DNA of 64,000 nt from NCBI RefSeq assembly GCF_000732625.1, contig NZ_JPJI01000032.1, positions 434,001 to 498,000 on the forward strand. Direction: 5' to 3'. This document shows, one piece after another, positions 639 to 61,419 of the stretch (position 1 is the stretch's first letter; every line of letters begins with the position of its first letter). The DNA comes from Nonlabens ulvanivorans (GTDB lineage Bacteria > Bacteroidota > Bacteroidia > Flavobacteriales > Flavobacteriaceae). A program made the position numbers and the translations under genes. The notes below the pieces were generated by a model that was given only the letters and a program-made list of their open reading frames with translations, was not told where the DNA came from and made no database searches.

Positions 639-653
639 GCTTCCGCGAAAGCG
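639..653. repeat. CTTTCGCGAAAG palindrome family, variant
   Basis: GCTTCCGCGAAAGCG, one mismatch to the 15-base consensus. It lies in the transcribed leader between the TPP aptamer and the receptor start. Confidence 0.6.
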
Positions 654-682
654 AAATTATAGCACACAAATCAACTAACTTA

Positions 683-765
683 AATCTTTTCCCTTAGCGA
701 CATTACTCGCCCAGGTTCCTTGGGTATTATCTCAGCCTTTATTTCTAAAAGCACCCCTTGAGATT
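683..765 (-). promoter_or_regulatory. TPP riboswitch (THI element)
   Basis: Read on the minus strand, this stretch carries the conserved THI-box blocks in order: GGGGTGC, GCTGAGAT followed by AATACCC, GAACCTGG, a GTAATG-type segment, and CGCTAAGGGA. A P1 helix can be drawn between AATCT (complement of 761-765) and AGATT (complement of 683-687). It sits about 145 nt upstream of the TonB receptor start and begins just after a TACTTTTG promoter box. By family knowledge it binds thiamine pyrophosphate and lowers expression of thiamine uptake or synthesis genes. No T-tract terminator was found between aptamer and ATG, so control is probably at translation. Confidence 0.92.
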
Positions 766-770
766 GGGTG

Positions 771-778
771 CAAAAGTA
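771..778 (-). promoter_or_regulatory. TAnnTTTG -7 box for the thiamine-regulated receptor
   Basis: The minus-strand sequence TACTTTTG matches the Bacteroidota -7 consensus TAnnTTTG. The expected transcription start would be near 766, right at the first base of the TPP aptamer, which fits a promoter that feeds the riboswitch leader. Confidence 0.65.
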
Positions 779-862
779 GTCTGAAAATGTAAATAGAAAA
801 ACAAAAAGAGAATTAAATTTAAACGAGACTAGAAACGCTCAATCTCTAAATAATTCATAAGC

Positions 863-2104
863 CTAAAACTCAATCTCTTTCTCCACCATTTTACCATCAC
901 GATCAACGGTTACCATAGTCTTATCACCATTATCAAATGTTGCTAATGTGCGCATGTAACTCATCATATCTACTATAGTACTATCACCTAGTTTTACAAC
1001 GACATCACCTTTCAACAATCCTGCTTTTTGTGCTGGTTTCTCTTCGCTTACTCCATCGATACGCATTCCTTTTCCGGTAAATAAATAATCTGGCACGACT
1101 CCTAGACCTACCTTAAAACGCGGCACTTCTTCGCTCTCGTTTTTTGTTTTTCTAAAGGCTAGTTTTCCAGCGTTATCAAACTCTGCAGTGATTCTTAAGA
1201 TATAATCAGAGATTTTTTGCATCCCATCATAATTCAATTTCTCGGCATCGTCGCCTGGTTTGTGGTAATCTTCATGTTGACCAGTGAAGAAATGTAAAAC
1301 TGGTATATCATTTAAGTAAAACGATGTATGATCGCTAGGTCCTACTCCACTTTCACTTAATGCCAGTTCAAAATCTTTATTAACTGCGTTAATGATTTGG
1401 TTCCATCGCGGCGAAGTTCCTGTTCCATAAACTGCTAAAGTGTTTTCTTCATTTAGCCTGCCCACCATATCCATGTTAATCATGTAGGTAATAGAATCCA
1501 GAGCAATTGTCGAGTTTTTAGTGAAGTAATTAGAACCTAATAATCCCATTTCTTCACCAGAAAATGCCATGAATAAGTAGTTATTCCCTTTTTTATCGCT
1601 CGTTTTCAATTCGTAAGCTAGATCTAACATAACCGCAACACCACTCGCATTATCATCTGCTCCGTTATGAATAGCTTCTCCTTCACGATGTAAAGAACCT
1701 TCGCCGCCCATTCCTAAATGATCATAGTGCGCACCTATTACTACTGTTTGTGCAGCGCCATTATCAATATAACCTAGAACGTTAGTTCCTGTAAGAAATG
1801 CATCGCCTTTCTCATCTGTAAAGGCAGCTTCTTGATGTGGATCGCTTGAAGGTTTAAAAGAAAAAGTCTGGAAATAAGTTCCTTCATTACCTTTAGGTTC
1901 TAGACCAGATTCTTTCATGCGTTTTGCAATATAATCTGCTGCTTGTAATTCATAAGAAGTACCAGTCTCACGACCTTGCAAGTCGTCTGATGCTAGATAA
2001 ACCACATCGGCTTTCATGTTACCTTTTACAGGTTCTAAAGATTTCACTTCTGTCTTGCAAGAGACTAATAAACAAATGGCTATAAAAAGTGTCGCGATTC
2101 TCAT
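863..2104 (-). CDS. M28 family metallopeptidase with PDZ domain, lipoprotein
   Basis: Zinc-dependent exopeptidase of family M28 (aminopeptidase-like), 413 residues. The signal peptide ends in a lipobox (LLVSC, Cys16), so it is a periplasmic or outer-membrane lipoprotein. Metal and catalytic residues are visible: HYDHLG (His126), GADDN (Asp151), FSGEEMG (Glu184/185), MDMVGR (Asp212) and the late DYHKPGD histidine (His281). A PDZ-like domain fills roughly residues 325-413 with a typical KAGLLKGDVVVKLG stretch. It is divergent from the PD40 lipoprotein gene, and their -7 boxes overlap each other's transcript starts. Peptide cleavage outside the cytoplasm is the likely job; the exact substrate is unknown. 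Confidence 0.92.
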   Translation of the reverse strand: MRIATLFIAICLLVSCKTEVKSLEPVKGNMKADVVYLASDDLQGRETGTSYELQAADYIAKRMKESGLEPKGNEGTYFQTFSFKPSSDPHQEAAFTDEKGDAFLTGTNVLGYIDNGAAQTVVIGAHYDHLGMGGEGSLHREGEAIHNGADDNASGVAVMLDLAYELKTSDKKGNNYLFMAFSGEEMGLLGSNYFTKNSTIALDSITYMINMDMVGRLNEENTLAVYGTGTSPRWNQIINAVNKDFELALSESGVGPSDHTSFYLNDIPVLHFFTGQHEDYHKPGDDAEKLNYDGMQKISDYILRITAEFDNAGKLAFRKTKNESEEVPRFKVGLGVVPDYLFTGKGMRIDGVSEEKPAQKAGLLKGDVVVKLGDSTIVDMMSYMRTLATFDNGDKTMVTVDRDGKMVEKEIEF

Positions 2105-2114
2105 ATCTAGCTTG

Positions 2115-2132
2115 TAATTTTGCTCAAAATTA
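2115..2132. promoter_or_regulatory. Face-to-face overlapping promoter boxes
   Basis: TAATTTTG on the plus strand (2115-2122) and the same TAATTTTG on the minus strand (2125-2132) are separated by two bases, forming an inverted repeat with 8-bp arms. Each box points across the other: the plus box drives the PD40 lipoprotein (ATG at 2141) and the minus box drives the M28 peptidase (ATG ending at 2104). RNA polymerase could occupy only one at a time. Confidence 0.6.
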
Positions 2133-2140
2133 AATCATCC

Positions 2141-3241
2141 ATGAGAACGTTCCTATTTCTAATCGCATTAATGGCTGTTATAAGCTGTAAAGACTCTGTA
2201 AATACTGAAGCAGCAGCTACAACTGAAGCAGAAAAAGTCAATGACAATCCATTGATCATGGAAGGTGAAAATCATTTTAAGGATATCCAGCAGGTGACCT
2301 TTGGTGGCGATAATGCCGAGGCTTACTGGAGTTTTGATGATAAACAACTGGTGTTTCAAAGCAACAACACCGCTTGGGATGTAGAATGTGATCAAATGTT
2401 CTTGATGAATAATGGAGATAGCTTTCGCAATAGCGTGCCTAAAATGGTCTCTACTGGTAAAGGAAGAACGACCTGTGCTTATTTCTTACCAGATAATGAG
2501 CATATCATTTATGCAAGTACGCACCTTGCGATGGATGATTGTCCAGATACTCCATTGAAAGAAAACGGGAAATATGTATGGCCTATTTATGACAGCTATG
2601 ACATTTTTGTAGCAGATCTAGAAGGAAATATCACAGCTCAATTAACTGACGAAAAAGGTTATGATGCAGAGCCTACTGTTTCTCCGCAAGGCGATAAAAT
2701 AGTGTTTACAAGTGATCGTAGTGGTGATCTAGAATTATACACTATGGATATAGATGGTAGTAATGTGAAGCAAATCACTTATGAATTAGGTTATGATGGT
2801 GGCGCATTCTTCTCACCAGATGGTACACAACTCATTTTCCGTTCTTCAAGACCTAAGACCGAAGCTGAAATCAAAGAATATAAAGATTTATTGAAATTAG
2901 GATTAGTACAGCCTACAGAGATGGAACTCTACATTTGTAATGCAGACGGATCTGATTTACGCCAGTTAACGCAGTTAGGAAATGCTAATTGGTCACCTTT
3001 CTTTTTACCAGATGGTAAGCGTGTGTTGTTCTCATCTAATTTTGAGGCAGAACGCGGTTTTCCTTTCAATCTTTACATGATTAATACGGACGGAACTGGT
3101 CTAGAACGTATTACTCACGGTGAGACTTTTGACGCATTTCCAGTATTCTCAAACAACGGTAAATACCTAGCGTTCTCTTCTAATCGCAATAATGGCGGTG
3201 GACGCGATACGAATCTTTTTATTGCAGAGTGGAAGGATTAA
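2141..3241 (+). CDS. TolB/PD40-like beta-propeller lipoprotein
   Basis: Lipoprotein of 366 residues built from WD40-like PD40 blades, as in TolB and the N-terminal propellers of S9 peptidases. The start at 2141 is chosen because it gives a clean signal peptide with lipobox AVISC and lies just after the TAATTTTG box; a longer TTG start at 2120 would lie inside that promoter. Repeated blade motifs include VSPQGDKIVFTSDRSGD, FSPDGTQLIFRSSRP and FSNNGKYLAFSSNRN, each followed by an LYTMDIDGSN or LYICNADGSD turn. No catalytic domain follows the propeller. It probably binds peptide or another protein at the cell envelope, perhaps working with the divergent M28 peptidase. Confidence 0.85.
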   Translation: MRTFLFLIALMAVISCKDSVNTEAAATTEAEKVNDNPLIMEGENHFKDIQQVTFGGDNAEAYWSFDDKQLVFQSNNTAWDVECDQMFLMNNGDSFRNSVPKMVSTGKGRTTCAYFLPDNEHIIYASTHLAMDDCPDTPLKENGKYVWPIYDSYDIFVADLEGNITAQLTDEKGYDAEPTVSPQGDKIVFTSDRSGDLELYTMDIDGSNVKQITYELGYDGGAFFSPDGTQLIFRSSRPKTEAEIKEYKDLLKLGLVQPTEMELYICNADGSDLRQLTQLGNANWSPFFLPDGKRVLFSSNFEAERGFPFNLYMINTDGTGLERITHGETFDAFPVFSNNGKYLAFSSNRNNGGGRDTNLFIAEWKD

Positions 3242-3434
3242 TTGGGTAATTAGGTTTTGGGGTTGCTGGGAATTTGGCTAGATTTTTCGCAATTATATTT
3301 AGTCAATACCAACACAAATAGATAGCATGTCAAATATGAAAATCTATCTGAAAATTAATATTGGTTACTAACATACGACTTTTTGTTCTTCATGATAATG
3401 ACTAGCTTATTCTATGTCAGAATCAAAAATGCAA

Positions 3435-3442
3435 TAGTTTTG
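3435..3442 (+). promoter_or_regulatory. TAnnTTTG -7 box
   Basis: TAGTTTTG, about 40 nt upstream of the ATG of the orphan lipoprotein at 3482. The match is exact, but the surroundings are very AT-rich, so chance occurrence is possible. Confidence 0.4.
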
Positions 3443-3481
3443 ATATGAAATCGTTACATTTAAATATTAAAATTTGATGTA

Positions 3482-4213: not shown

Positions 4214-4237
4214 TTAAATATTAGTTTAGTAGGTAGT

Positions 4238-6439: not shown

Positions 6440-6454
6440 GCTTTCGCGAAAGCG
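6440..6454. repeat. CTTTCGCGAAAG palindrome family
   Basis: GCTTTCGCGAAAGCG, exact. It lies in the gap between the end of the DUF1501 gene and the metG promoter. No T-tract follows, so it is not an obvious terminator. Confidence 0.85.
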
Positions 6455-9656: not shown

Positions 9657-10562
9657 TTGAGAGAATATACATATACCGGTTTAAAAAGTAACGATCATGT
9701 ACGAATTCTTTGTACAGCAAGAAGCGCTGTTCAGGCTGACTTAAAGCCAGCACATGAGTTATTAGAATCATGGGGTTTACGCGTGAGTTATGGTAAAACT
9801 ATAGGAGCCATAAATCATCAATTTGGCGGTACAACTAGCTTAAGAATTACTGATTTTCAAGATGCTTTAAATGATGAAGATATCGACGCCATATGGATTG
9901 CTCGTGGTGGCTATGGTACCGTGCAGATCATCGATGATGTTGATTTTTCCGCTTTCGCGAAAGCGAATTTTAAAAAGCTAATCATAGGTTACTCAGATGT
10001 TACGATACTACACAGTCATTTACAAAAGATGGATCTCACGAGTTTACATAGCTTTATGCCATTAGAACTTAAAGACAAATCACAATCTTGTATAGATAGT
10101 TTTAAAAAAGCCTTAACAGGTCATTCTCAAAGTATATCTATTACAAATGATAACAATATAGAACCTCAAGAACTTAAAGCTCGTGTGGTAGGTGGAAATT
10201 TATCTATTCTCTACAGTCTATTAGGCTCTAAAAGTTTTACAAATACCGATGGGTGTTTTCTATTTATAGAAGATATAGATGAGTATGTATATCATATAGA
10301 ACGTATGATGTATGGACTTAAAAGAGCTGGGCATTTAGATAAGCTCAAAGGTTTAATCGTAGGTGGAATGACTGATATGAGAGATCACAAAATTCCGTTT
10401 GGTAAAAATGCGGTGGAGATTATCAAAGACATAACTGCTAGTTATCATTATCCTGTGATTTTTAATTTCCCTGCTGGGCATATAAAAGATAACCGTAGCC
10501 TAAAACTAGGCACAGATATGCATGTTTCCATTAAAAAGAATCATATCACTTTCACTTATTAA
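9657..10562 (+). CDS. ldcA: LD-carboxypeptidase (S66 family)
   Basis: Serine peptidase of family S66 (muramoyltetrapeptide carboxypeptidase, LdcA/MccF), 301 residues, which trims the terminal D-Ala from murein tetrapeptides during wall recycling. Features are WIARGGYGTVQIIDDVDF, the nucleophile in IIGYSDVT (Ser113), FIEDIDEYVYHIERMMYGLKRAG with the catalytic Glu, and PAGHIKDNRSLKLG with the catalytic His. The start is TTG at 9657; no ATG or GTG lies between the last stop and the conserved start of the domain. A CTTTCGCGAAAG palindrome is read in frame as AFAKA at residues 99-103. yraN follows after 3 nt. Confidence 0.9.
   Translation: MREYTYTGLKSNDHVRILCTARSAVQADLKPAHELLESWGLRVSYGKTIGAINHQFGGTTSLRITDFQDALNDEDIDAIWIARGGYGTVQIIDDVDFSAFAKANFKKLIIGYSDVTILHSHLQKMDLTSLHSFMPLELKDKSQSCIDSFKKALTGHSQSISITNDNNIEPQELKARVVGGNLSILYSLLGSKSFTNTDGCFLFIEDIDEYVYHIERMMYGLKRAGHLDKLKGLIVGGMTDMRDHKIPFGKNAVEIIKDITASYHYPVIFNFPAGHIKDNRSLKLGTDMHVSIKKNHITFTY
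9950..9965. repeat. CTTTCGCGAAAG palindrome family, inside ldcA
   Basis: CGCTTTCGCGAAAGCG, perfect over 16 bases. It encodes part of SAFAKAN in the LD-carboxypeptidase. Confidence 0.85.
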
Positions 10563-10979: not shown

Positions 10980-12053
10980 TTATTCTTTCTCTTCCTTTAT
11001 AAGATATACATATACAGGAAAGTGATCACTGAAACCATTAGTGAAACTACCATTATTATAGCTACGTAACGGATACCCTTTATAGCGTCCAGATTTATTA
11101 GTCATAAAACTAGGATTATAAATTCCAGCATGATAATAGAAGTAACCTTCTTGATCTGCTTTTTTTAATAAAGGATAAGTAAGCATGATCTGGTCAAAAA
11201 TATTTCCTGCATCTCTGTAAGAAAGCGTGTTAAAACCATCTTTTAACATTTGGATGTATGGATTATAAATCATTTGAGGCTTTACGTCTTCCTGATCTTG
11301 TTGTGCATTTAATGTTTTAAGAACACTCTCATTAGTAGGGTCATCATTTAAATCTCCCATGGTCATTATTTTGGCCATCGCATTAGTTACGTGCAAGGAA
11401 TCGATAATTTGCTGATTTAAGGCTGCTGCTGCAACACGTTTTGCTCTACTACGCATCTCGCCACCGCTACGTGATGGCCAGTGATTAACGATAACACTCA
11501 TAAGATCGCCATTAAGCTCTCCTGTTACCACTAACTGATCACGAGTAAAAATACGGCGACCACTACCAGGATCTGATATGTCTAAACGTCTCGACTGAGA
11601 GTTAATCACTTTAAATTCACTCTTCTTATATAATAAAGCGACATCAATACCACGTCTGTCTGGAGAATCGTAATGTTCTATACCATAATCATAGTCTCTT
11701 AATAGCTCGTGGCTCGCAAGGTCTTCAAGTACCTTACGGTTTTCAACTTCACAAACACCTATTAAAGCAGGAGCAGTTCCCGACTTATCTGCACCAATTT
11801 TTCTAAGAACACGTGCCATGTTTGTTAATTTCTTTTGATACACGTCTTCTCTTAATCCTTCAGCCATTTCCATCATAGGGCTGGCTTCATCATTGATTGT
11901 AGGATCATCTTCTGTATCGTAAAGATTTTCTAGATTGTAAAACGCAACAGTTTGTATTTTATACTGTTTTGTGTCATTGTTATCTTGTTGTGCATGAGAC
12001 GCTTTAGCGAAAGCGAAAAAAACAAAAGCACTGGTAATGAGATATTTATACAT
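10980..12053 (-). CDS. Secreted endonuclease/exonuclease/phosphatase family protein
   Basis: Exported EEP-superfamily enzyme, 357 residues, with a Sec signal peptide (cut likely after ASHA). The catalytic set is present: TVAFYNLENLYD (Asn), GVCEVENRKVLEDL (metal-binding Glu), DRRGIDVALLYK, VNHWPSRSGG (His), MGDLNDDP (Asp/Asn) and the final FSDHFPVYV (Asp-His). Substrates of the superfamily include nucleic acids and phosphoesters, so extracellular DNA or phosphate scavenging is a reasonable guess. It is divergent from a TonB receptor and DUF5689 lipoprotein pair, suggesting shared regulation. A one-mismatch CTTTCGCGAAAG palindrome falls inside the signal peptide (FAFAKAS). A paralogue lies at 20674-21663. 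Confidence 0.9.
   Translation of the reverse strand: MYKYLITSAFVFFAFAKASHAQQDNNDTKQYKIQTVAFYNLENLYDTEDDPTINDEASPMMEMAEGLREDVYQKKLTNMARVLRKIGADKSGTAPALIGVCEVENRKVLEDLASHELLRDYDYGIEHYDSPDRRGIDVALLYKKSEFKVINSQSRRLDISDPGSGRRIFTRDQLVVTGELNGDLMSVIVNHWPSRSGGEMRSRAKRVAAAALNQQIIDSLHVTNAMAKIMTMGDLNDDPTNESVLKTLNAQQDQEDVKPQMIYNPYIQMLKDGFNTLSYRDAGNIFDQIMLTYPLLKKADQEGYFYYHAGIYNPSFMTNKSGRYKGYPLRSYNNGSFTNGFSDHFPVYVYLIKEEKE
12001..12015. repeat. CTTTCGCGAAAG palindrome family, variant in a signal peptide
   Basis: GCTTTAGCGAAAGCG, one mismatch to the consensus. It codes for part of FAFAKAS in the signal peptide of the EEP protein. Confidence 0.6.
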
Positions 12054-20486: not shown

Positions 20487-20502
20487 CGCTTTCGCGAAAG
20501 CG
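20487..20502. repeat. CTTTCGCGAAAG palindrome family
   Basis: CGCTTTCGCGAAAGCG, perfect over 16 bases, in the 290-bp gap between the PorP/SprF start and the end of the second EEP gene. Nothing else was recognised in this gap. Confidence 0.85.
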
Positions 20503-24120: not shown

Positions 24121-24630
24121 CTACTTTTTTTTCTTATAAACGGGTACCGCACTACAGGCCTCGCCGTACATTACTGATTTAGCAACACCATGCAGGCGTT
24201 CAGTAATCATCATATAAGCAGTTAGAGGAACTGGCTTATGAGAACAGCCTTTTACGATTACAGGCATATCCATGTATGGATCAAGATTTAACTGATTGAT
24301 AATTGGACTGTATAGACTAGTTTCTAAATCTTCTAATGAGCCCAACACTACTTTTTTAGCGATACCTGTTAACTCCATTTGCACTAACATCCATGCCCAT
24401 TGAGGTATAATGGCGTCTGTAGAGCATTTTACTGCTACATAATGATCTTTATAAGCAGTAAAATCTGTGTTTTTTAAGCTTTCGCGAAAGCGTGATTCTA
24501 CTAACACAATACCTTCCATCAACCACTGAGAAATATCTAGCTCACTGCGCGGTCCTACAGGATAATAATCTTCTAAGTCGATGACCTGAAGTTTTGAGTT
24601 TGCGACTCTATTAATGATCTCGCCTTCCAT
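24121..24630 (-). CDS. DUF2480 family protein
   Basis: Cytoplasmic protein of 169 residues resembling DUF2480. Visible features are VIDLEDYYPVGPRSELDISQWL at the N-terminus, AVKCSTDAIIPQWAWMLVQ in the middle and PVIVKGCSHKPVP with a conserved-looking Cys-His. It starts 3 nt after sufT in the SUF cluster, which suggests a link to iron-sulfur assembly; its function is not known. A CTTTCGCGAAAG palindrome is read here as RFRES, a different frame from other genes. The C-terminus is a run of lysines. Confidence 0.85.
   Translation of the reverse strand: MEGEIINRVANSKLQVIDLEDYYPVGPRSELDISQWLMEGIVLVESRFRESLKNTDFTAYKDHYVAVKCSTDAIIPQWAWMLVQMELTGIAKKVVLGSLEDLETSLYSPIINQLNLDPYMDMPVIVKGCSHKPVPLTAYMMITERLHGVAKSVMYGEACSAVPVYKKKK
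24478..24492. repeat. CTTTCGCGAAAG palindrome family, inside the DUF2480 gene
   Basis: GCTTTCGCGAAAGCG, exact. It is translated on the minus strand as RFRES, a frame not used by the AFAKA copies. Confidence 0.85.
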
Positions 24631-28561: not shown

Positions 28562-28576
28562 GCTTTCGCGAAAGCG
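28562..28576. repeat. CTTTCGCGAAAG palindrome family
   Basis: GCTTTCGCGAAAGCG, exact, in the gap between sufC and sufD. Confidence 0.85.
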
Positions 28577-33345: not shown

Positions 33346-34089
33346 TTAATCGATCAAATGCATGTTACTAACGATTTCACTAGGATGGGTAAGTAATAAC
33401 ATGTGTCCACCTTCAATACTTACACCAGCATAAAGTTCTTGGCTTAACTCGGCCTCGATAATAGATTTTTCAATAACGGTATCACGATTTCCATAAATGT
33501 ATTGAACAGGCACATCAACATGTCCGAGCTGTGATGGACGATCTCTCATCGCACGCAGTGCCGCCAGTACAGCTTCTAGAGTAATCTCTTGAGATTCAAT
33601 CCTCATATTTTCAATAATAGCCTTATGAGTTACATGTTCTTGAGGCGTAAAAAGATTATTAATAGCCATAGATACATAGGCATTTTGAAAGCGATCAATT
33701 AGTTGGATTGCACGATCTCGCATCATTTTACGGGCTACACTATCAGGTCCCATAATACTGTTCAATAATGTTAAAGAATAAAGTTGTTGAGGATACGCTT
33801 TCGCGAAAGCAGATCCTACATAACCACCCATACTATGACCTATAAAATGCACCTTATGAATATCATTTTCTATCAAAAATTGTGAGATTTCAAAAGCCAG
33901 ATCATCGATAGAGTATTGCGATACCATAGGAGATTCACCATGACCAGGTAATTCAACATGTATAATATTATAGCTGTTTTCTAATAATTTTGCCACCGTA
34001 TTCCACTGGCTTTTACTACCTAAAAAACCGTGTAAAAGTAGTACACTAGGCTTATTTGAGGACTTATAGTAATAGGTCATTTTCTTCAT
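33346..34089 (-). CDS. Alpha/beta hydrolase
   Basis: Alpha/beta-hydrolase fold protein of 247 residues. The oxyanion region is LLLHGFLGSKSQW, the nucleophile elbow is FIGHSMGGYVG (Ser about 98), a late acid is in YIYGNRDTV and the His is in IEGGHMLLLTHP. No signal peptide, so cytoplasmic. It resembles the MenH/YbfF-like group, and no men genes lie nearby, so the substrate stays open. The start could also be the ATG three codons in (MTYYYKSSN). A palindromic repeat is read as SAFAKAY. Confidence 0.88.
   Translation of the reverse strand: MKKMTYYYKSSNKPSVLLLHGFLGSKSQWNTVAKLLENSYNIIHVELPGHGESPMVSQYSIDDLAFEISQFLIENDIHKVHFIGHSMGGYVGSAFAKAYPQQLYSLTLLNSIMGPDSVARKMMRDRAIQLIDRFQNAYVSMAINNLFTPQEHVTHKAIIENMRIESQEITLEAVLAALRAMRDRPSQLGHVDVPVQYIYGNRDTVIEKSIIEAELSQELYAGVSIEGGHMLLLTHPSEIVSNMHLID
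33796..33810. repeat. CTTTCGCGAAAG palindrome family, inside the hydrolase gene
   Basis: CGCTTTCGCGAAAGC, exact core, read on the minus strand as SAFAKAY. Confidence 0.85.
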
Positions 34090-38278: not shown

Positions 38279-39205
38279 TTGAATTTCCCTATTGCCTTTC
38301 ATCCTATTTATAAACATCCTTTACCAGATGGCCATCGTTTTCCTATGGTAAAATATGAGCTATTACCACAGCAACTTTTACTAGAAGGAACCGCAAATCA
38401 GACAGATTTTTTTGAGCCCAGTAAACTATGTTGTGATATAGATGTATTGCGTGTTCATACTTCAGAGTACTTAAAAAACCTTAAGGCCTTAAATCTAGAC
38501 CGTAAAGCAGCACGCAAATTGGGTTTTCCATTAAACAATCAGCTAGTAGAAAGAGAATTATACATAGCTCAAGGTACAATTGATGGTTGCACAAAGGCAT
38601 TTGAATACAACATTGCAATGAATATCGCTGGTGGCACACACCATGCTTACACAGATCATGGTGAAGCATTTTGTTTACTAAATGATCAGGCAATCGCTGC
38701 TAGATACTTACAACATCATCAGCTAGCAGATAAAATTCTGATTGTAGATCTGGACGTTCATCAAGGAAATGGAACAGCTGAAATCTTCCAAAATGACGAT
38801 AGCGTATTCACATTTTCCATGCATGGCGCAGGTAATTATCCGTTTAAAAAGGAGTTGTCTGACCTAGATATCGCCTTACCAGATCATACTGATGACAGTA
38901 GTTATCTCAATGAACTTCATCATATTCTGCCTGATTTAATTGCTCAAGAACAGCCCGATTTCATTTTCTACCTGTGTGGTGTCGATGTGCTAGAAACAGA
39001 CAAGTTAGGCAGGCTAGGTATGACTCTAGATGGTTGTAAAAAAAGGGATGAGTTTGCTTTGTCCGCTTTCGCGAAAGCGAGAACAAAAAATAATAACCGC
39101 ATCCCAATACAATGCAGTATGGGCGGCGGTTACTCTCCTGATATTAAATTAATCATTGAAGCACATGCTAACACCTATAGAGTAGCACGAGATATTTTTA
39201 CTTAG
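38279..39205 (+). CDS. Histone deacetylase family protein
   Basis: Zinc-dependent deacetylase of the HDAC/acetoin-utilisation/acetylpolyamine amidohydrolase superfamily, 308 residues, cytoplasmic. Active-site features are GGTHHAYTDHGEAFCLLND (His-His pair), DLDVHQGNGTAEIF (zinc Asp/His), FSMHGAGNYP and GVDVLETDKLGRLGMT (zinc Asp). The start is TTG, as no ATG is in frame upstream of the conserved FHPIYKHPLP. The physiological substrate in flavobacteria is not known. A perfect 16-bp palindrome is read as SAFAKAR near the C-terminus. Its stop lies one base from the end of the converging membrane-protein gene. Confidence 0.93.
   Translation: MNFPIAFHPIYKHPLPDGHRFPMVKYELLPQQLLLEGTANQTDFFEPSKLCCDIDVLRVHTSEYLKNLKALNLDRKAARKLGFPLNNQLVERELYIAQGTIDGCTKAFEYNIAMNIAGGTHHAYTDHGEAFCLLNDQAIAARYLQHHQLADKILIVDLDVHQGNGTAEIFQNDDSVFTFSMHGAGNYPFKKELSDLDIALPDHTDDSSYLNELHHILPDLIAQEQPDFIFYLCGVDVLETDKLGRLGMTLDGCKKRDEFALSAFAKARTKNNNRIPIQCSMGGGYSPDIKLIIEAHANTYRVARDIFT
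39064..39079. repeat. CTTTCGCGAAAG palindrome family, inside the deacetylase gene
   Basis: CGCTTTCGCGAAAGCG, perfect over 16 bases, read in frame as SAFAKAR. Confidence 0.85.
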
Positions 39206-42650: not shown

Positions 42651-42665
42651 GCTTTCGCGAAAGCG
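42651..42665. repeat. CTTTCGCGAAAG palindrome family
   Basis: GCTTTCGCGAAAGCG, exact, in the divergent region between the AraC-type gene and hemA. Confidence 0.85.
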
Positions 42666-44065: not shown

Positions 44066-45008
44066 AATAAGAATAGGTACAAGAGATTCACAACTAGCGA
44101 TGTGGCAGGCCACAACTGTTCAGTCTCAATTAGAAGCTTTAGGTTTTCAAACAGAATTATTACCTGTAAAATCACAAGGTGATCTTAATCTTGATGAGCC
44201 ACTTTATGAAATGGGCATCACAGGTATCTTTACTAAAACTCTCGATGTCGCACTAGTTAAAGGTGATATTGATATTGCAGTGCATAGTCTTAAAGACGTT
44301 CCTACTCAACTACCTAAAGGTATGGTGCAAGCAGCTGTGCTTGAGCGCGCTTCTCAGAAAGATATTTTAGTATATAAGTCTAACTTTAATCCAGATGAAG
44401 CCATGACTATCGCAACTGGTAGTTTACGTCGCAAGGCCCAATGGCTTAATATGTACTCACAACATCAGGTTGTTGATATAAGAGGTAATGTTAACACACG
44501 CCTTTCTAAATTACATAGTAATAAAGACTGGAATGCTGCAATATTTGCAAAAGCAGGATTAGACCGTATCGGGTTATTATCGCAATTAAGAAGTAATTAT
44601 GGGTTTGAATATTCAGACTTAGATAGTTTTGTGCCAGCACCAGCTCAAGGCGCGATGATGATTGCCGCAATGGGACATAATACCGCTGTATTAGAAGCGG
44701 CCTCACAACTTAATCACGCTCAAACACAACGATGTGTTGACATAGAACGACGTTTTCTAAGAGAATTAGAAGGCGGTTGTACCGCTCCAATAGGTGCGAT
44801 TGCTCAAGTGCGTGATAATAAAATTGATTTTACCGGCTGTCTATTAAGTATAGATGGTACGGAACGTATCGATGTAAAAGATCAGATTAACTTGACAGAA
44901 ACAGATGTTGATTTAGGTCTCGCTTTCGCGAAAGCGCAATCAGAAAAAGTATTTGCAAACGGCGGAAAAGCTTTAATGCAATCCATTAAGTCGGTACTTA
45001 ATTCCTAG
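44055..45008 (+). CDS. hemC: Hydroxymethylbilane synthase
   Basis: HemC (porphobilinogen deaminase), 317 residues. It links four porphobilinogen units. Signatures are RIGTRDSQLAMWQ, AVHSLKDVPTQLP, TGSLRRKAQW and the cofactor-binding LEGGCTAPIGA. It overlaps hemA by 11 nt. No hemD follows; the next gene is cvpA. A perfect palindromic repeat is read as LAFAKAQ near the C-terminus. Confidence 0.96.
   Translation: MSLKIRIGTRDSQLAMWQATTVQSQLEALGFQTELLPVKSQGDLNLDEPLYEMGITGIFTKTLDVALVKGDIDIAVHSLKDVPTQLPKGMVQAAVLERASQKDILVYKSNFNPDEAMTIATGSLRRKAQWLNMYSQHQVVDIRGNVNTRLSKLHSNKDWNAAIFAKAGLDRIGLLSQLRSNYGFEYSDLDSFVPAPAQGAMMIAAMGHNTAVLEAASQLNHAQTQRCVDIERRFLRELEGGCTAPIGAIAQVRDNKIDFTGCLLSIDGTERIDVKDQINLTETDVDLGLAFAKAQSEKVFANGGKALMQSIKSVLNS
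44921..44936. repeat. CTTTCGCGAAAG palindrome family, inside hemC
   Basis: CGCTTTCGCGAAAGCG, perfect over 16 bases, read in frame as LAFAKAQ. Confidence 0.85.
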
Positions 45009-49909: not shown

Positions 49910-50749
49910 TTACCAGTCTTTCTCTGTTTTAACGCTTTTGCCTTGAGCCTTTTTTGCGTTTACTTTTTCTTGAATCTTTTGTTCTTCATTAGACATCGCC
50001 TCTAACAATTGTCTTGCTTGCTGCGGCGTTAATTTACCTTCAACACGCTGTGGTTGCTGTCCTTGATTTTGTTCCTTAGGTTTACCATCACCATTCTCTC
50101 CTTCACTATTCTCTCCTTTATCACTTTCTTTTTGATCGCCTTTATCGCCTTCTTGATCTTTACCGTCTTTCTCGTTCTGATCACCTTCATTATCACCATC
50201 ACTATTCTCATCCTTATCACCTTCTTTATTATCTTGATCCTTATCTTGATCTTGATCATCATTGCCTCCACCGCCACCGCCGCCATTTTTCTCTTTCTCT
50301 TGTTTTGCAAGGGCAAGGTTATAGCGAGTTTCATCGTCTGTAGGGTCATTGCGCAAGGCGTTTTTATAGGCCTCTACAGCTTCATCATATTGCTTATTTT
50401 CTAAAAAAGAGTTCCCTAGATTATGATAAATCTTGTGCTTTTCTTCTTTACTTGTAGATGCCTCGGCAGCCTTTTTATAATTCTCTACAGAGTTGAATTT
50501 TTTATCGTTGTTATAATATAGCGTACCTAAGTTATAACTAGCTTCTGCTGCGCCAGGTTTAAGTGCAGTGGCCTTGCGATAAGATGCTTCTGCTTGATTA
50601 AAATCGCCTTCAGCTGTATATTCTTGAGCTTCTGCAACAGCTGTATCATATGCCTTGTCTAATTCTTTGTTTTGTTGTGCTTTCGCGAAAGCGAGACCTA
50701 ACAAGCTCAATGCAACCACACAGATAATATGTTTATGACTATTACTCAT
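49910..50749 (-). CDS. batC: BatC, TPR protein with long acidic low-complexity tail
   Basis: TPR protein of 279 residues, exported. TPR motifs run from about 40 to 150 (AEASYNLGTLYYNNDKKFNSVENYKKA, IYHNLGNSFLENKQYDEAVEAYKNAL). Then comes a run of seven glycines and roughly 75 residues built almost wholly from Asp, Glu, Lys, Gly, Asn and Gln (QDKDQDNKEGDKDENSDG and so on). The DNA of that tail is repetitive, which explains long open frames on both strands there. A palindromic repeat lies in the signal peptide (GLAFAKAQQ). It overlaps batB by 8 nt. Confidence 0.92.
   Translation of the reverse strand: MSNSHKHIICVVALSLLGLAFAKAQQNKELDKAYDTAVAEAQEYTAEGDFNQAEASYRKATALKPGAAEASYNLGTLYYNNDKKFNSVENYKKAAEASTSKEEKHKIYHNLGNSFLENKQYDEAVEAYKNALRNDPTDDETRYNLALAKQEKEKNGGGGGGGNDDQDQDKDQDNKEGDKDENSDGDNEGDQNEKDGKDQEGDKGDQKESDKGENSEGENGDGKPKEQNQGQQPQRVEGKLTPQQARQLLEAMSNEEQKIQEKVNAKKAQGKSVKTEKDW
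50679..50693. repeat. CTTTCGCGAAAG palindrome family, in the batC signal peptide
   Basis: GCTTTCGCGAAAGCG, exact, read on the minus strand as LAFAKAQ at the end of the signal peptide. Confidence 0.85.
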
Positions 50750-52805: not shown

Positions 52806-54436
52806 TTACCTGATTGTTTTTTAGAATTTTCAATTTTTGCAATCTCAATAGAACTTAGGATACGTTCTTTAATCAAACGACCATACTCTCTAAATTTATC
52901 CTCTTCCTCATCTTCTAAGTGAGTTACAAAAATTTGTTGCATTCCACTATTTTCATTAAAAATCCATAGGTCATACTCATATATCGAGCCTTCAAAATCA
53001 AAGGTTCCTGAAAACTCCAGCCCTTTCATTCCTTTATGCTCTAACTCGTTATCTAGCATAACAATATTAGTCGCTCCATCTTGTTCCAGACCACTAGTAA
53101 CAGGACCGATTAAGTTTTGCGCATTAAGTTCATTAAGCTGTGCACCTTCTTTAAATAAATATGTAGATACTGTAATGGTCAGATCATCGCCATCTTCACC
53201 TAATTGAAAGTTATCAAATGCACCTACATATTGAGAAAGCTCTTCGGGAAGTTTATCCTCATCTGTACGCACTAATATATCTGGAGTGGTAATAGCTACT
53301 TCTGGAACACCATAACCCGATCGCAACCAGTCCTGCTCATAATAATCGCGTAACTCGTTTCCTAGTATCTTATCCTTAACATTATTTGCTCCTTCAATAT
53401 AAATCCAACTACCTAACGCAATTATTATCGTAATTAAAGCTAATCCTGCACCTAGCGCAATTTTTTTAGCTTGCGCTTTCAATTCTTGCTTTCTTCTATA
53501 TTTTGCATCCATCATCAACTCCTCTTCAGTAGGTGGTGGTAGTACCTGATGAATGTTATAGATAATATCGGTTGTGTGCAATCGATCTTCTTTTGCAGTA
53601 ATGGCATCTGGTGCGACACCAGCAAATTTTACAAGATCTGCTCTTTCTAATATTTCTTTAAGTCGAGTCTCTGTCGTTGATGTAATGTTCATACCACGAT
53701 CAACCATAACTGTTTTAAGTTCACCTAATAATTGTCCTGTTGTGCTCTCTAAAGCATGTCCATATACCTTAGAGTCAATATATTTTCTAATAATATAAGT
53801 CAACTCTGTATAGAATTCTTTAGAGCGTTTTTGCTCTAACAACTGCTGTTCATCTAGTTTTGATAAACGATATCTAGTCCATTCATAAGGCTGTAATGTT
53901 TCCTCATAGGTTTTCTTTTCACGCTTTCGCGTAAGCAGATATATAAGACCACCTAGTGGTAAAAGCAATAGCAGCCACCATAACCAGCTCCAGTCAGTAG
54001 GTCTTGTGTCTGGTATATCGATAGCTGGCTTTATGTCAAACATTTTTTGTTTTGCAGTATCCACTTGTACCTCGCGAACTTTTACAATTATGGAATCCGA
54101 AAATATTTTAGCCTCGTTTTTAAGAATGCTTAATTGTGGAACATAATAATCACCAGAATCCCATTGAGTAATCCCATATTGTTTAAATAATCTCAATCGA
54201 TCATTTTCACGTATTGTGTCTACTGGATAAGACTCTATAACTTCTAACTGACCAAATTTTGCCTGTTCTGGAAAAACAATTAAATCTGTACTTGTAGCAT
54301 CTACGGTAATACCTAGTTTCACCTCTTCACCCATTAGTATTTCATTACGATCAACAGTAGTTTGTACTGGCTGTTGAGCTAATAGTTGGGTCATGCTTAA
54401 AAACCCGAAAAAGAATATTTGAATCAATTGCTTCAT
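52802..54436 (-). CDS. Bat-operon protein with Ig-like and DUF4381-like regions
   Basis: Protein of 544 residues between DUF58 and batA. A signal peptide (LLAQQ) is followed by a BatD-like Ig region (NEILMGEEVKLGITV), a membrane helix (WSWLWWLLLLLPLGGLIYLL, about 147-166), a cytoplasmic helical segment like DUF4381 (EFYTELTYIIRKYIDSKVYG), a second helix (IALGAGLALITIIIALGSWIYI) and a C-terminal soluble domain. It overlaps both neighbours by ATGA junctions. A degenerate palindromic repeat occurs at 53922-53936 (TRKR). Confidence 0.85.
   Translation of the reverse strand: MKQLIQIFFFGFLSMTQLLAQQPVQTTVDRNEILMGEEVKLGITVDATSTDLIVFPEQAKFGQLEVIESYPVDTIRENDRLRLFKQYGITQWDSGDYYVPQLSILKNEAKIFSDSIIVKVREVQVDTAKQKMFDIKPAIDIPDTRPTDWSWLWWLLLLLPLGGLIYLLTRKREKKTYEETLQPYEWTRYRLSKLDEQQLLEQKRSKEFYTELTYIIRKYIDSKVYGHALESTTGQLLGELKTVMVDRGMNITSTTETRLKEILERADLVKFAGVAPDAITAKEDRLHTTDIIYNIHQVLPPPTEEELMMDAKYRRKQELKAQAKKIALGAGLALITIIIALGSWIYIEGANNVKDKILGNELRDYYEQDWLRSGYGVPEVAITTPDILVRTDEDKLPEELSQYVGAFDNFQLGEDGDDLTITVSTYLFKEGAQLNELNAQNLIGPVTSGLEQDGATNIVMLDNELEHKGMKGLEFSGTFDFEGSIYEYDLWIFNENSGMQQIFVTHLEDEEEDKFREYGRLIKERILSSIEIAKIENSKKQSGK
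53922..53936. repeat. CTTTCGCGAAAG palindrome family, variant
   Basis: CGCTTTCGCGTAAGC, one mismatch to the consensus. It is translated on the minus strand in a third frame (LLTRKR). Confidence 0.55.
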
Positions 54437-56617: not shown

Positions 56618-56633
56618 CGCTTTCGCGGAAGCG
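56618..56633. repeat. CTTTCGCGAAAG palindrome family, variant
   Basis: CGCTTTCGCGGAAGCG, one mismatch, about 20 nt upstream of the SDR -7 box. Confidence 0.6.
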
Positions 56634-58046: not shown

Positions 58047-58390
58047 ATTATGCTTATTACATTGTACAATTTTGGACTAGTTACTTAATATCAAAACTAA
58101 TTTTGTAACTCTGGTTTTTAATATAAACTTTCCCTTATTAAAGAAAAACAAGCATGAGTTTTAGATAATGTAATATTTATTATTAGTAGGACCAACAAAA
58201 GCAAAGTTTAGAATTACTTAATCACTTTTTAATAATAAACGAGTCTCTTGTTGACCTATTCCAGCAGCATGAAGATATAGATAAGGTGTGCCTAGCACTA
58301 TCAAATATAGCGATGCTAAAATGGTTATATTAAAAATGCCGCAGTACGCCACAAAATTCCGATTTTTGCTCAAACACTTACCACAATTAT
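58047..58390. other. Intergenic region without a recognised gene
   Basis: No convincing gene. At 58092-58105 CAAAACTAATTTTG holds two back-to-back TAnnTTTG boxes (TAGTTTTG on minus, TAATTTTG on plus) that share their TA. The plus box is nearly 290 nt from hemB, so any link is unclear. A minus-strand frame (58218-58427) begins inside hemB and was judged a shadow. Confidence 0.5.
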
Positions 58391-59365
58391 ATGTACCCAT
58401 TAAGACGTAATAGAAGATTAAGAACAAACAACGCTATAAGATCAATGGTTCAAGAGACCATAATATCACCTAATGATTTTATCGTTCCTCTGTTTATAGT
58501 AGAAGGAACTGGTATAAAGGAAGAAATCGCCTCTATGCCAGATTACTATCGTTATAGTCTAGATTTACTTAAAGAAGAAGTAAAAACGCTATGGTCTATG
58601 GGATTGAAAAGTGTGTTGCTTTTTGTAAAAGTTCCCGACAATCTAAAAGACAATAAAGGAACTGAAGCTATTAATGCAAATGGTTTGATGCAACGCGCTA
58701 TTAAAACAGTCAAAGATGTAGCGCCAGATATGTATGTTATGACAGATGTTGCATTGGATCCTTTTTCAAGTTATGGCCATGATGGTATAGTAGAAAACGG
58801 TGAGATTCTAAATGATGAAACTGCTGAAGTGCTGGCTCAAATGAGCGTCTCACATGCACAGGCTGGAGCAGATATGGTAGCGCCTAGCGACATGATGGAT
58901 GGACGTATTCTTTATATACGTGAAGCTCTAGAAGAAGAAGGTTTTAAAAATACAGGAATCATGAGTTATAGCGCAAAGTATGCTAGCGCTTTTTATGGAC
59001 CTTTTAGAGATGCACTGGATAGCGCGCCTGGTTTTGGAGATAAAAAAACCTATCAGATGGATCCTGCAAACCGTAGTGAAGCCATAAGAGAAACACTCAT
59101 GGATATCGATGAAGGAGCAGACATAGTTATGGTAAAACCAGGATTGTGTTATCTAGATATCGTGCGTGATTTAAAAAACGAAGTTGAAGTTCCTATTAGT
59201 GTTTATCAAGTGAGTGGTGAGTATGCGATGCTTAAAGCTGCGGCAGAAAAAGGCTGGTTGAACCACGACGCCGTGATGATGGAACAAGTCACTGCCATTA
59301 AAAGAGCTGGAGCTGATCTTATAGCGAGTTATTTTGCTAAAGATGTAGTTAAATTACTAGGTTAA
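58391..59365 (+). CDS. hemB: Delta-aminolevulinic acid dehydratase
   Basis: HemB, 324 residues, joins two aminolevulinate molecules to porphobilinogen. N-terminal MYPLRRNRRLR, catalytic Lys regions MSYSAKYASAFYGPFRDALDSAP and MVKPGLCYLDIV are intact. The metal-site segment reads DVALDPFSSYGHDGIV, lacking the zinc-binding cysteines of the E. coli type, so it belongs to the magnesium-type group. It is separated from hemA-hemC by about 13 kb of unrelated operons. Confidence 0.97.
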   Translation: MYPLRRNRRLRTNNAIRSMVQETIISPNDFIVPLFIVEGTGIKEEIASMPDYYRYSLDLLKEEVKTLWSMGLKSVLLFVKVPDNLKDNKGTEAINANGLMQRAIKTVKDVAPDMYVMTDVALDPFSSYGHDGIVENGEILNDETAEVLAQMSVSHAQAGADMVAPSDMMDGRILYIREALEEEGFKNTGIMSYSAKYASAFYGPFRDALDSAPGFGDKKTYQMDPANRSEAIRETLMDIDEGADIVMVKPGLCYLDIVRDLKNEVEVPISVYQVSGEYAMLKAAAEKGWLNHDAVMMEQVTAIKRAGADLIASYFAKDVVKLLG

Positions 59366-59397
59366 AAATTGTTGATTAACTTTACAAAAAACTATTC

Positions 59398-60498
59398 ATG
59401 GGATTACTCCTTATTTACGCAACAGTTTCGATTTTCTTTTCCTTTCTCTGCTCTATTCTAGAAGCGGTATTATTGAGTATTACTGGTACTTTTATGAAAG
59501 TAAAAGGTCAAGAAGGTGCTTCCTATATTCCAGCATTAAAAGAACTTAAAAAAGATGTGGACAAACCACTTATTGCCATTCTGACTTTAAATACGCTTGC
59601 TCATACGGTAGGAGCAATTCTAGTAGGTGTTCAAGCAGAAAATATGGTAAGTGGTAGTGGATATGACAGCAGTTATTTTGGGATACCATTTGTTGGGATT
59701 GTATCGGGTATCATGACCGTTTTAATTCTTGTAGTGTCTGAAATCATTCCTAAGACGATTGGGGCGACTTACTGGCAAAGCCTTGCTGGTTTTACGACTA
59801 CAGCATTAAATATCATGATTTTTCCATTAAAATGGTTAGGAATTTTATGGGTATTACAATTAACCACTAAAGCCATTGGTAAAAGCGCTCACATGAACAC
59901 CATGACTCGTGAAGATTTTATTGCCATTACAGATACAGCAGAGAAAGAAGGCGTTTTTGACCCATCAGAAGGTCAGTATATCAAAAGCCTTATGAACTTT
60001 AATCAGATTGAAGTTAAAGACGTGATGACGCCACGATCAGTCATGTTTATGGCGCCGCAGTCTATGAAGATTAAAGATTTCTTTAAAGAAAATCAGGAAT
60101 TGCGATTCTCTCGTATTCCCGTTTTTGGGACTAATAGAGATGACATTAAAGGATACGTACTTAAAGATCATATTCTAGAAGATATTATACACGATAAACC
60201 AGCAGAAACACTTGAAGATTTACGTCGCGAAATTTCTATGGTACCTGCAAATATGCCTATCCCACAATTATTTGAAAAAATGATTGCTACTAAAGAACAT
60301 ATGGCACTAGCCGTAGATGATTATGGTAGCGTACAAGGTGTCGTTACTATGGAAGATGTCATAGAAACCATGCTAGGATTAGAAATTATGGATGAAAGTG
60401 ATAATGTTGAAGACATGCAGCAATTAGCACGTAAAAATTGGGAAAAAAGATCTAAATCTCTTGGTTTAGAAAATCCAGAACAAGATTCAAATTTATAG
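59398..60498 (+). CDS. CNNM/DUF21 membrane protein with CBS pair
   Basis: Protein of 366 residues: a DUF21/CNNM membrane region (about 1-165, several helices including VSEIIPKTIGATYW) and two CBS domains (VKDVMTPRSVMFMAP and MALAVDDYGSVQGVVTMEDVIETMLG). The family includes CorC/TlyC-type proteins tied to magnesium and cobalt transport. The usual C-terminal CorC_HlyC domain is missing; a short acidic tail takes its place. It follows hemB after 32 nt and may be co-transcribed. Confidence 0.9.
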   Translation: MGLLLIYATVSIFFSFLCSILEAVLLSITGTFMKVKGQEGASYIPALKELKKDVDKPLIAILTLNTLAHTVGAILVGVQAENMVSGSGYDSSYFGIPFVGIVSGIMTVLILVVSEIIPKTIGATYWQSLAGFTTTALNIMIFPLKWLGILWVLQLTTKAIGKSAHMNTMTREDFIAITDTAEKEGVFDPSEGQYIKSLMNFNQIEVKDVMTPRSVMFMAPQSMKIKDFFKENQELRFSRIPVFGTNRDDIKGYVLKDHILEDIIHDKPAETLEDLRREISMVPANMPIPQLFEKMIATKEHMALAVDDYGSVQGVVTMEDVIETMLGLEIMDESDNVEDMQQLARKNWEKRSKSLGLENPEQDSNL

Positions 60499-60503
60499 GT
60501 CTC

Positions 60504-61016
60504 ATGAAAAAAGCCATTCTCCTTCTTACTATTTTATTGGGAATTACAAGCATGGCTCAACAAACTAATGTGAAAGGTGCATTTCTAGAAAAGTGGAATA
60601 ATTCAAAAGAATATCTCGTCGCTATTGCACAAGCAATGCCTGAAGATAAATACGACTTCAAGCCTACGAAACGTCAAATGAGTTTTAAAACTCAATTGAT
60701 ACATATTGAAGGCAACATGAAATGGCTGGGCACAACTTACTTTAATCTAGAAACTGTAGGAGAACCAGAAGACCTATCTGATTTATCTAAAGAAGATCTC
60801 ATTATTGCCCTGCAATCTAGATTTGACGATATATATAATGCTGTAAAAGCTATGGATGCTGGAAAGTTTGAAGAAGTTGTCGAATTTTATGCTGGACCTA
60901 AATCTAGATTACAAATTCTTAACTTATTGCAAGATCATGTTACACATCATCGTGGTCAACTTATTGTATATCTCAACATGTGTAATGTAGACTTACCTAG
61001 ATATAGTGGATGGTAG
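60504..61016 (+). CDS. Secreted DinB/YfiT-like protein
   Basis: DinB-superfamily four-helix protein of 170 residues. The metal-binding histidines are in QLIHIEGN (about residue 69) and DHVTHHRGQL (about residues 150-155). Unusually it begins with a Sec signal peptide (KKAILLLTILLGITSMAQ), so it is exported. Many Bacteroidota DinB-like proteins have such signals. It begins 5 nt after the CBS protein gene, in the same operon. Thiol-dependent transfer is the usual activity of the superfamily; the substrate is unknown. Confidence 0.88.
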   Translation: MKKAILLLTILLGITSMAQQTNVKGAFLEKWNNSKEYLVAIAQAMPEDKYDFKPTKRQMSFKTQLIHIEGNMKWLGTTYFNLETVGEPEDLSDLSKEDLIIALQSRFDDIYNAVKAMDAGKFEEVVEFYAGPKSRLQILNLLQDHVTHHRGQLIVYLNMCNVDLPRYSGW

Positions 61017-61373
61017 TTAGTTGATAACCTCAGCATCAATCATATACTGTACTATAGCTTCTTTCATTAATAAAGACTGTTCTCCTGCTTTTAGCGGCGG
61101 CAAATTCTCTTTTACGATATAATGTGGCCATTTATCATCATCAAAATGCGAGAATTCATAATAGCCATAAGGTTCTAGAACACGACATATCGCAATGTGC
61201 ATGAGTTGGTATTTCTCATCTTTCTGAAACTTACGATGCAGCTGTCCCAATTCTTGAACTCCTATCATGAACAATATAGCATCTATATCCATTTGTTCTC
61301 CATCACTGAATCGCTCTTGAAAAAAGGCAACTGTCTGTGCCCATCGTTCCTTTAATTGTTCATCTCTGCTCAT
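61017..61373 (-). CDS. Conserved hypothetical protein
   Basis: Cytoplasmic protein of 118 residues, mainly helical, with RDEQLKERWAQTVAFFQERF at the N-terminus and IDAILFMIGVQELG and ICRVLEPYGYYEFSHFDDDKWPHY later. I believe it is a conserved flavobacterial protein, but I cannot name a family. Its stop is adjacent to the stop of the converging DinB gene. A TACTTTTA near-match to the -7 box lies at 61378-61385, almost at the ATG. Confidence 0.75.
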   Translation of the reverse strand: MSRDEQLKERWAQTVAFFQERFSDGEQMDIDAILFMIGVQELGQLHRKFQKDEKYQLMHIAICRVLEPYGYYEFSHFDDDKWPHYIVKENLPPLKAGEQSLLMKEAIVQYMIDAEVIN

Positions 61374-61404
61374 GCTGTAAAAGTACGATGTGTGTTGGGA
61401 TTAT

Positions 61405-61419
61405 GCTTTCGCGAAAGCG
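61405..61419. repeat. CTTTCGCGAAAG palindrome family
   Basis: GCTTTCGCGAAAGCG, exact, in the gap between the hypothetical gene and aminopeptidase P. Confidence 0.85.

Follow-up and report, generated by a model that had tools for sequence, protein, structure and literature searches.

Among the closest described counterparts of the sequence reported here are the uptake sequences of Neisseria (DUS) and Haemophilus (USS), which number hundreds to thousands of copies, are lineage-specific and conserved, show flank preferences, and occur both within and between genes with an intergenic excess. HIP1 of cyanobacteria (GCGATCGC) is a highly iterated genome-wide palindrome with symmetric extensions. 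Chi is short and asymmetric, and the sites of Noc/ParB, SlmA and MatP are palindromic dimer sites spread over the chromosome. In the accessible text of one source, neisserial DUS are described as conserved, core-genome elements with a spacing like that of conversion tracts and are reported as absent from recently acquired genes (PMC2397512). The available part of another cites Karlin's report of even USS spacing and finds DUS/USS less even than compaction signals should be (PMC1939737). As for Bacteroidota, no established uptake code emerged from our literature search. According to the accessible sections of one study, Riemerella columbina is transformed preferentially by DNA of its own kind, no competence was seen in Flavobacterium johnsoniae under conditions where R. 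columbina was competent, and Riemerella k-mers were surveyed for an uptake code with no conclusion reached (PMC7965970).

Here, we describe a palindrome of marine flavobacteria that has the appearance of a site at which a protein would dock to mark or organise the cell's own DNA; direct literature searches found no published description of it. It shares the DUS/USS features listed above, along with the even spacing reported for USS, but is a palindrome with symmetric arms and a longer core whereas DUS/USS are non-palindromic, occurs once per 3-6 kb rather than every ~1-1.5 kb, belongs to a different phylum, and is carried by a phage lineage, with its uptake role being proposed here. Unlike HIP1, it spans 14-16 bp with long arms in addition, its inner TCGCGA shows no excess outside the motif, and it lacks the inner GATC of GCGATCGC. 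Its density is comparable to that of Escherichia coli Chi, but Chi is asymmetric, uneven and read in one orientation, whereas outside the window the flanks of the palindrome are balanced in orientation. The TTTC..GAAA pattern is one that we take to resemble parS/Noc sites, but with a 2-bp rather than a 4-bp centre. The palindrome has far more copies than the Noc/ParB, SlmA and MatP sites and, unlike them, shows no trend in 20 chromosome samples and has no motif-linked ParB paralogue.

In the window (the whole 64-kb stretch of Nonlabens DNA analysed), the 12-mer core occurs exactly 11 times, compared with 0 across 100 dinucleotide shuffles, and each position given for these copies in the initial annotation is correct. 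The four one-mismatch copies it listed also exist, with the last three shifted by 1-2 bases (12-mer starts at 640, 12002, 53924 and 56620). All 11 exact copies are the 14-mer GCTTTCGCGAAAGC, and the sequences flanking them differ from copy to copy. Those in intergenic DNA, with no strand assigned to any copy, lie at 6440..6453 (adjoining the methionyl-tRNA synthetase gene), 20488..20501, 28562..28575 (retained in three close relatives, with none at the corresponding alignment position of G015 and G010), 42651..42664 (divergent genes on either side; decayed in G001) and 61405..61418. Coding copies lie at 9951..9964 (AFAKA frame, peptidase S66 gene), 24478..24491 (RFRES frame, DUF2480 gene; exact in G010, in a 77% identical stretch, and with one mismatch in G015, at 73%), 33797..33810 (AFAKA frame; lost in G003), 39065..39078 (close to the 3' end), 44922..44935 (porphobilinogen deaminase gene; synonymous GCTTTTGCAAAAGC in G016) and 50679..50692 (TPR protein gene). 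The one-mismatch copies are found at 639..652 (GCTTCCGCGAAAGC, intergenic; exact in G016 and G003, with the same mismatch in G001), 12001..12014 (near the 5' end of an Exo_endo_phos_3 gene; identical core in three relatives), 53923..53936 (coding; three relatives with the same mismatch) and 56619..56632 (5' end of an ORF for a short-chain dehydrogenase, placed in intergenic DNA by our gene calls; same core mismatch in three relatives). A decayed copy with two mismatches at 2421..2434, within ORF 2120-3241, is exact in G001, G016 and G003, all three close relatives compared.

The over-representation is genome-wide, strong and lineage-restricted, as in uptake sequences. The 3.21-Mb genome from which the window comes holds 574 12-mers and 566 14-mers, with a reversed control of 0, so that counts are far from expectation; nor do the copies trace to one recent local duplication, as their flanks differ and they are present on every contig listed. 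Other Nonlabens carry 288-857 14-mers each (22/22 genomes) and four Dokdonia genomes 570-905, and none of the 394 other Bacteroidota sampled exceeds 6. Residual copies persist in a related genus, with 7 and 13 exact copies in the Leeuwenhoekiella genomes.

The copies are also evenly spaced, at an overall density of about 1 site per 3-6 kb along the chromosome. In the window genome, 87 gaps with a mean of 4.7 kb have a CV of 0.46 (random placement, 0.97), and none of 5000 random placements was equally even. G020 gave a CV of 0.50 over 92 gaps and two Dokdonia genomes 0.62 over 74 gaps, among the places listed. One listed stretch of G004, another Nonlabens, is much less regular (CV 0.92). The comparable figure for E. 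coli Chi is 1.40 (50 gaps with a mean of 3.8 kb in 200 kb).

Conservation is strong, with a core divergence of 0.014-0.016 compared with 0.10-0.12 in the adjacent flanks, and the core was retained in 30/33 orthologous comparisons (neighbouring 14-mers, 0.35-0.42). Copies at orthologous, permissive places are conserved between close species and not between genera, where the coding positions held in common are 0/4 for Dokdonia and 1/16 for Leeuwenhoekiella. In the cross-genus protein alignments, read by eye, the five core residues are ungapped in 12/16 cases for Leeuwenhoekiella (the other 4/16 having a gap) and 4/4 for Dokdonia; in most alignable cases, ordinary residues have been replaced in place, with no insertion. 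Intergenic DNA is enriched, with 63/199 copies within 9.3% of the DNA and 136/199 in genes, and the gap between rpoB and rpoC contains a copy in 11/11 motif-rich species examined, from three lineages.

The symmetry of the palindrome extends well beyond its core. In two genera, the flank preference (A-rich, G-poor at 3', no T-tract) is symmetric and reaches ~18 bp past the core on each side, and no covariation between the arms was detected in four sets (z of 0.9, 0.3, 0.0 and 0.6), a result more in keeping with a site bound by a protein dimer than with a hairpin. Likewise, what had looked by eye like a hairpin between rpoB and rpoC gains no support from covariation over all copies. The extension to GCTTTCGCGAAAGCG that had been annotated holds for 10/11 exact window copies, although its one-sidedness (3' G on the + strand in 10/11) is a local feature: elsewhere in this genome, across 20 stretches, 49/68 copies are the full 16-mer, 8 have the 3' G alone and 7 the 5' C alone. 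This symmetric majority and balanced remainder exclude a replication-linked polarity.

What might the role of such a sequence be? Our preferred reading, tentative and with a little less than an even chance of being correct, is that it is a self-DNA mark for uptake and recombination, like the neisserial or pasteurellacean uptake sequences. A sequence-specific protein would bind the palindrome in double-stranded DNA as a symmetric dimer, with half-sites of roughly CGAAAGCG, each extended by an A-rich, G-poor arm of ~18 bp. Sites would be held at ~1 per 3-6 kb where coding constraint permits, and DNA of the cell's own kind and of close relatives would be recognised in uptake and in homologous recombination. 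A fragment with one site would be favoured and a second site nearby would bring no gain, so that sites would be evenly spaced and actively maintained. The binding, the dimer and the role in uptake or recombination are all three things that we infer.

In support of a self-DNA mark, we count the even spacing, independent half-sites, core conservation, intergenic enrichment, scarcity in one 20-kb stretch (below), mosaic ancestry, ComEC and the published parallels. Recombination between species is evident as mosaic ancestry among four species, where site patterns in conflict with one another (856/595/1060) cluster below 500 bp. ComEC is present in 15/15 motif-rich genomes, 2/2 Leeuwenhoekiella and 9/9 others (26/26 in total) and, being found in motif-poor genomes too, discriminates nothing. 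Against the mark, we count this lack of discrimination, the failure of a ParB-family search to find a binding protein, a weak test in which recombination switches showed no excess near motifs (difference -0.026, P 0.70), the F. johnsoniae result cited above, and the motif-bearing phage lineage, recently acquired genes being free of DUS according to the accessible part of PMC2397512. A literature search for natural transformation in Dokdonia listed only a paper whose title concerns another organism.

A close rival, which we consider doubtful but well short of improbable, is a chromosome-organising site, at which a cytoplasmic dimeric protein, bound to an array with a site every 3-6 kb, would compact, loop or tether the chromosome while selection would prevent large gaps, integrated prophages included. 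Since DUS/USS are non-palindromic and less even than compaction signals should be, a very even palindrome suits this rival at least equally; the long symmetric arms, a spacing far more regular than that of Chi, the absence of any broad trend across 20 samples from around a complete chromosome, the rpoB-rpoC copy of every motif-rich species examined, and a phage lineage in which copies have a density and spacing similar to the host's beside a Nonlabens phage without copies are all in its favour. Yet ParB of 299-315 aa occurs in 28/28 genomes and no further paralogue of the ParB/Noc kind goes with the motif (a longer homologue, of 599-616 aa, is in 1/7 motif-rich and 4/21 other genomes), Leeuwenhoekiella manages with its handful of copies, the G004 stretch is irregular, and the benefit of each site among hundreds would presumably be tiny, yet residues at motif sites differ from those of the other genus. 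Spanning both readings, we suggest, as somewhat less than probable, that in a few genera of marine flavobacteria the chromosome is partitioned into ~3-6 kb units by an even array, not recognised before, of sites for a dimeric protein, which are selected at permissive places and have been acquired by a phage lineage of these hosts, as either a palindromic self-DNA code or a new chromosome-organising system.

The evenness that suits a chromosome-organising site counts against a signal of the Chi type that a helicase-nuclease would read in recombination or repair, as do a 14-16 bp palindrome with symmetric arms and a Nonlabens phage without the motif; despite a density near that of E. coli Chi and the mosaic recombination, we hold this improbable. 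Equally improbable is a methylation-linked palindrome in which an orphan methyltransferase acts on the inner sequence. The motif is palindromic, iterated and lineage-restricted, as HIP1 is in the available part of PMC4390886, but just 5 of the 16 TCGCGA in the window lie outside exact copies, and the conserved unit with its ~18-bp arms exceeds an inner methylation site. More improbable still is an RNA hairpin, terminator or short palindromic mobile element, to which the self-complementary sequence, the gapped Leeuwenhoekiella alignments, some intergenic copies 12-54 nt past a stop codon, and other inverted repeats that many other genera have, by eye, between rpoB and rpoC might point. Against it are the arms without covariation, flanks without a T-tract, the majority of copies inside genes, and gaps between convergent genes holding 5/61 intergenic copies compared with 8.8 expected (an avoidance of such gaps, seen as 0/33 in a first set, was dropped on this larger set). 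The initial annotation had rejected a terminator and a transposon, which the coding and non-coding copies, the lack of a T-tract and of covariation, and the mostly ungapped core residues bear out, and its likening of the motif to HIP1, uptake or segregation sequences stands as well; its self-copying element and its methylation link, in view of the TCGCGA counts, gain no support here.

Recently acquired DNA presents a mixed picture. A 20-kb stretch with a polysaccharide-degradation locus (PUL, by eye) has 1 copy compared with a mean of 5.6, the Nonlabens phage P12024S has 0, and one phage lineage has copies with a density and spacing resembling the host's. A motif-like query of phage records gave 9 weak matches (best E 1), and one phage stretch examined was uninformative, as was the metG protein on plasmids, and relationships could not be resolved from metG identity. 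The even spacing, long half-sites, restriction to few genera and phage pattern had escaped the initial annotation.

A palindromic self-DNA recognition code would, to our knowledge, be the first in Bacteroidota, and an uptake code would help explain gene exchange within these marine lineages. A chromosome-organising site would be an unusually regular one, with motif-poor Leeuwenhoekiella as a natural comparison. On either reading, the 14-mer tags Nonlabens/Dokdonia-type DNA and could be used in tracing gene transfer and assigning phages to hosts.

As for dialects, no comparable palindrome was evident in 14 single 20-kb stretches of other genera (five shorter stretches excluded), a weak test that missed the known motif in 20 kb of the window and in 20 kb of G226, a further motif-rich genome. 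GCTTCCGCGGAAGC, considered as an abundant Leeuwenhoekiella dialect, was rejected, with 10 and 14 places at ≤1 mismatch (reversed control 0 and 1) and 0 and 0 in two other genera. A clean restriction of the palindrome to motif-rich genera is spoiled by a scattered low-level excess at ≤1 mismatch in a few motif-poor genera, such as one genus with 29 and 23 places in two of its genomes and another with 26 and 28, the reversed controls giving 0-1.

Here, we describe the palindrome as a highly iterated genomic motif: a long, symmetric and strongly maintained site, held at a set spacing and present in few lineages. It is palindromic like HIP1, the cyanobacterial iterated palindrome, and behaves like the DNA uptake sequences of Neisseria (DUS) and Haemophilus (USS), but by membership tests it belongs to none of these. 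In the open-access literature (subscription journals being outside our scope), we found no prior description of the motif or of palindromic sites for Nonlabens or Dokdonia, and no title on neighbouring subjects names it.

All 11 copies of the 12-mer core claimed by the initial annotation are present in the window (100 shuffles gave 0), each within GCTTTCGCGAAAGC (11/11). The genome-wide count it recommended yields 574 12-mers and 566 14-mers (hereafter exact copies), against 0 for the reversed motif. There are 288-857 copies per genome in 22/22 other Nonlabens searched, 570-905 in each of four Dokdonia genomes beyond G242, and 7 and 13 in two Leeuwenhoekiella. At least one copy occurs in 80 genomes of a Flavobacteriaceae sample (n=397), where only four Nonlabens, G226 (a genome outside these genera; 408) and G242 (857) are dense and the others have 19 or fewer; in a Bacteroidota sample (n=395), 22 have any copy, with a maximum of 6 once the window genome is set aside. 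In an RpoB tree the window genome clusters (support 100/100) with three named Nonlabens, and the distribution is patchy because motif-poor Leeuwenhoekiella joins G226 and Dokdonia (100/99), with Nonlabens separate and that fork unresolved. In 400 kb of L. palythoae there are 13 sites at ≤2 mismatches (reversed control, 1; three other control palindromes, 1-5), and the symmetric variant GCTTCCGCGGAAGC lies between its rpoB and rpoC genes; both may be relics of a lost array. Scattered near-motif sites (≤1 mismatch) also number 23-29 per genome in G180, G364, G112 and G322, from genera without a dense array (reversed control, 0-1), a low-level excess.

Spacing is very even. Within the window genome, three contiguous pieces totalling 424 kb (≤1 mismatch) have a mean gap of 4.7 kb and a coefficient of variation (CV) of 0.46; 3/87 gaps fall below 1.5 kb, against an expectation of 24. 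That evenness was never matched in 5000 random placements, and 79 equally abundant control 8-mers from that DNA had a mean CV of 1.00 (minimum 0.82); Chi in 200 kb of E. coli gave 1.40. Twenty sampling points round the complete 3.25-Mb chromosome of the Nonlabens G020 gave a CV of 0.50 and no broad density trend. Short lists of exact copies on other contigs gave 0.21-0.74 in eight, the listed places of two Dokdonia genomes 0.62 over 74 gaps, and the Nonlabens G004 0.92 over 93 gaps, with gaps below 1 kb still 5 against 18 expected. By eye, the two G020 stretches with the fewest copies contain a giant open reading frame and a locus of pectin/alginate type. In G020 locus L310 (1410-19145), an open reading frame of 5911 residues lies in a 20-kb stretch at 50% GC (genome ~39%) with 2 copies at ≤1 mismatch; the polysaccharide-degradation locus L328 (SusC/SusD- and pectate-lyase-like genes, by eye) has 1 copy in 20 kb.

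When ~62 kb of the window is aligned with three close Nonlabens relatives (G001, G016 and G003; ~90% identity), exact copies are retained in 30/33 comparisons, compared with 35-42% of nearby 14-mers (P about 5e-10). Divergence is 0.014-0.016 in the core and 0.10-0.12 in adjacent flanks; further out it is 0.14 around coding and 0.055 around intergenic copies. The imperfect copies at 12001, 53923 and 56619 keep the identical mismatch in relatives. A symmetric double change, TCGCGA to TTGCAA, was seen at 44922 in G016 (coding, synonymous) and at 42651 in G001; 864 kb of DNA, partly orthologous, contains 3 instances of GCTTTTGCAAAAGC. Coding copies turn over from genus to genus (0/4 aligned places shared with Dokdonia, 1/16 with Leeuwenhoekiella), unshared places having ordinary residues in the other genus, with the five core residues ungapped in 4/4 and 12/16, respectively (by eye).

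By a simple gene caller's non-coding fractions, 63/199 copies in 1.02 Mb of Nonlabens are intergenic (9.3% of the DNA is non-coding), as are 36/66 in Dokdonia (12.7%), whose loci were mostly picked because the motif was present; 90/136 coding Nonlabens copies use the AFAKA reading frame. The rpoB-rpoC gap carries a copy in 11/11 motif-rich species (five Nonlabens, five Dokdonia and G226), and the 6.8-kb rpoB locus of 19 other genomes has 0 exact copies, with the symmetric variant in one Leeuwenhoekiella. In many other flavobacterial genera, this gap has some inverted repeat of unrelated sequence (L340-L369, by eye).

What might read such a site? Bases outside the 14-mer, pooled from the two sides of 138 copies in Nonlabens and 64 in Dokdonia, are similarly biased, with G at +1 (0.83 in both genera), A at +3, +7, +10 and +13, and G depleted over ~18 bases. 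The bias holds in intergenic copies alone, with small genus differences (T at +5, 0.70 in Nonlabens and 0.36 in Dokdonia), and its 3-base rhythm stems in part from coding copies, whose third codon positions land there. Arm-to-arm agreement within single copies does not exceed column-frequency expectation; half-sites read independently favour a symmetric, putatively dimeric protein over a hairpin.

Our first choice is that such a protein would use the site in DNA uptake and recombination, as a mark of self-DNA, because of the DUS/USS parallels and because a relative within the same order prefers its own DNA (PMC7965970). DUS is described as abundant, conserved and spaced in relation to recombination tracts (PMC2397512), even spacing is noted for USS (PMC1939737), and H. 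influenzae takes up fragments exceeding USS spacing near-evenly (PMC7811141). Recombination between Nonlabens species appears pervasive from pattern counts in four Nonlabens without a motif-poor control (window against G001, G016 and G003: conflicting site patterns for the three ancestries 856/595/1060, clustering below 500 bp and fading by 3 kb), and in the same four we found no concentration near motifs. A chromosome-organising site would fit at least as well on palindromy, on the very even spacing and on a phage lineage that carries the motif; readings as a Chi-like signal, a methylation-linked motif, a terminator or a mobile element are poorer fits.

That lineage (L211, L390-L393, L424, L426), picked out through motif presence, has 14 exact and 3 near copies over 81 kb in five nearly identical, non-independent contigs, a host-like density, and one record encodes an integrase. 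Its relatives lack copies (24 at 46-58% capsid identity, 238 kb; 6 distant ones, 66 kb). Phage P12024S, whose host strain is now named Nonlabens, has 0 sites at ≤2 mismatches in 35.7 kb, and its portal-protein relatives (best 80 of 83 loci, one almost P12024S itself) have 0 at ≤1 mismatch in 761 kb. Among viral records, seven selected for carrying the motif total 24 copies over 185 kb.

In motif-poor genera, copies frequently occur within islands, which look like DNA acquired from motif-rich donors. G196, G251 and G443 share the spacing 933, 10754, 3991, which in G196 and G443 falls inside a metal-efflux cluster (by eye). Metal-efflux and multicopper-oxidase islands with the motif (by eye) were seen at L056 and L516-L519 (G196, G123) and at L512-L515 (G372), the G372 copies lying near conjugation-like genes and a recombinase (by eye).
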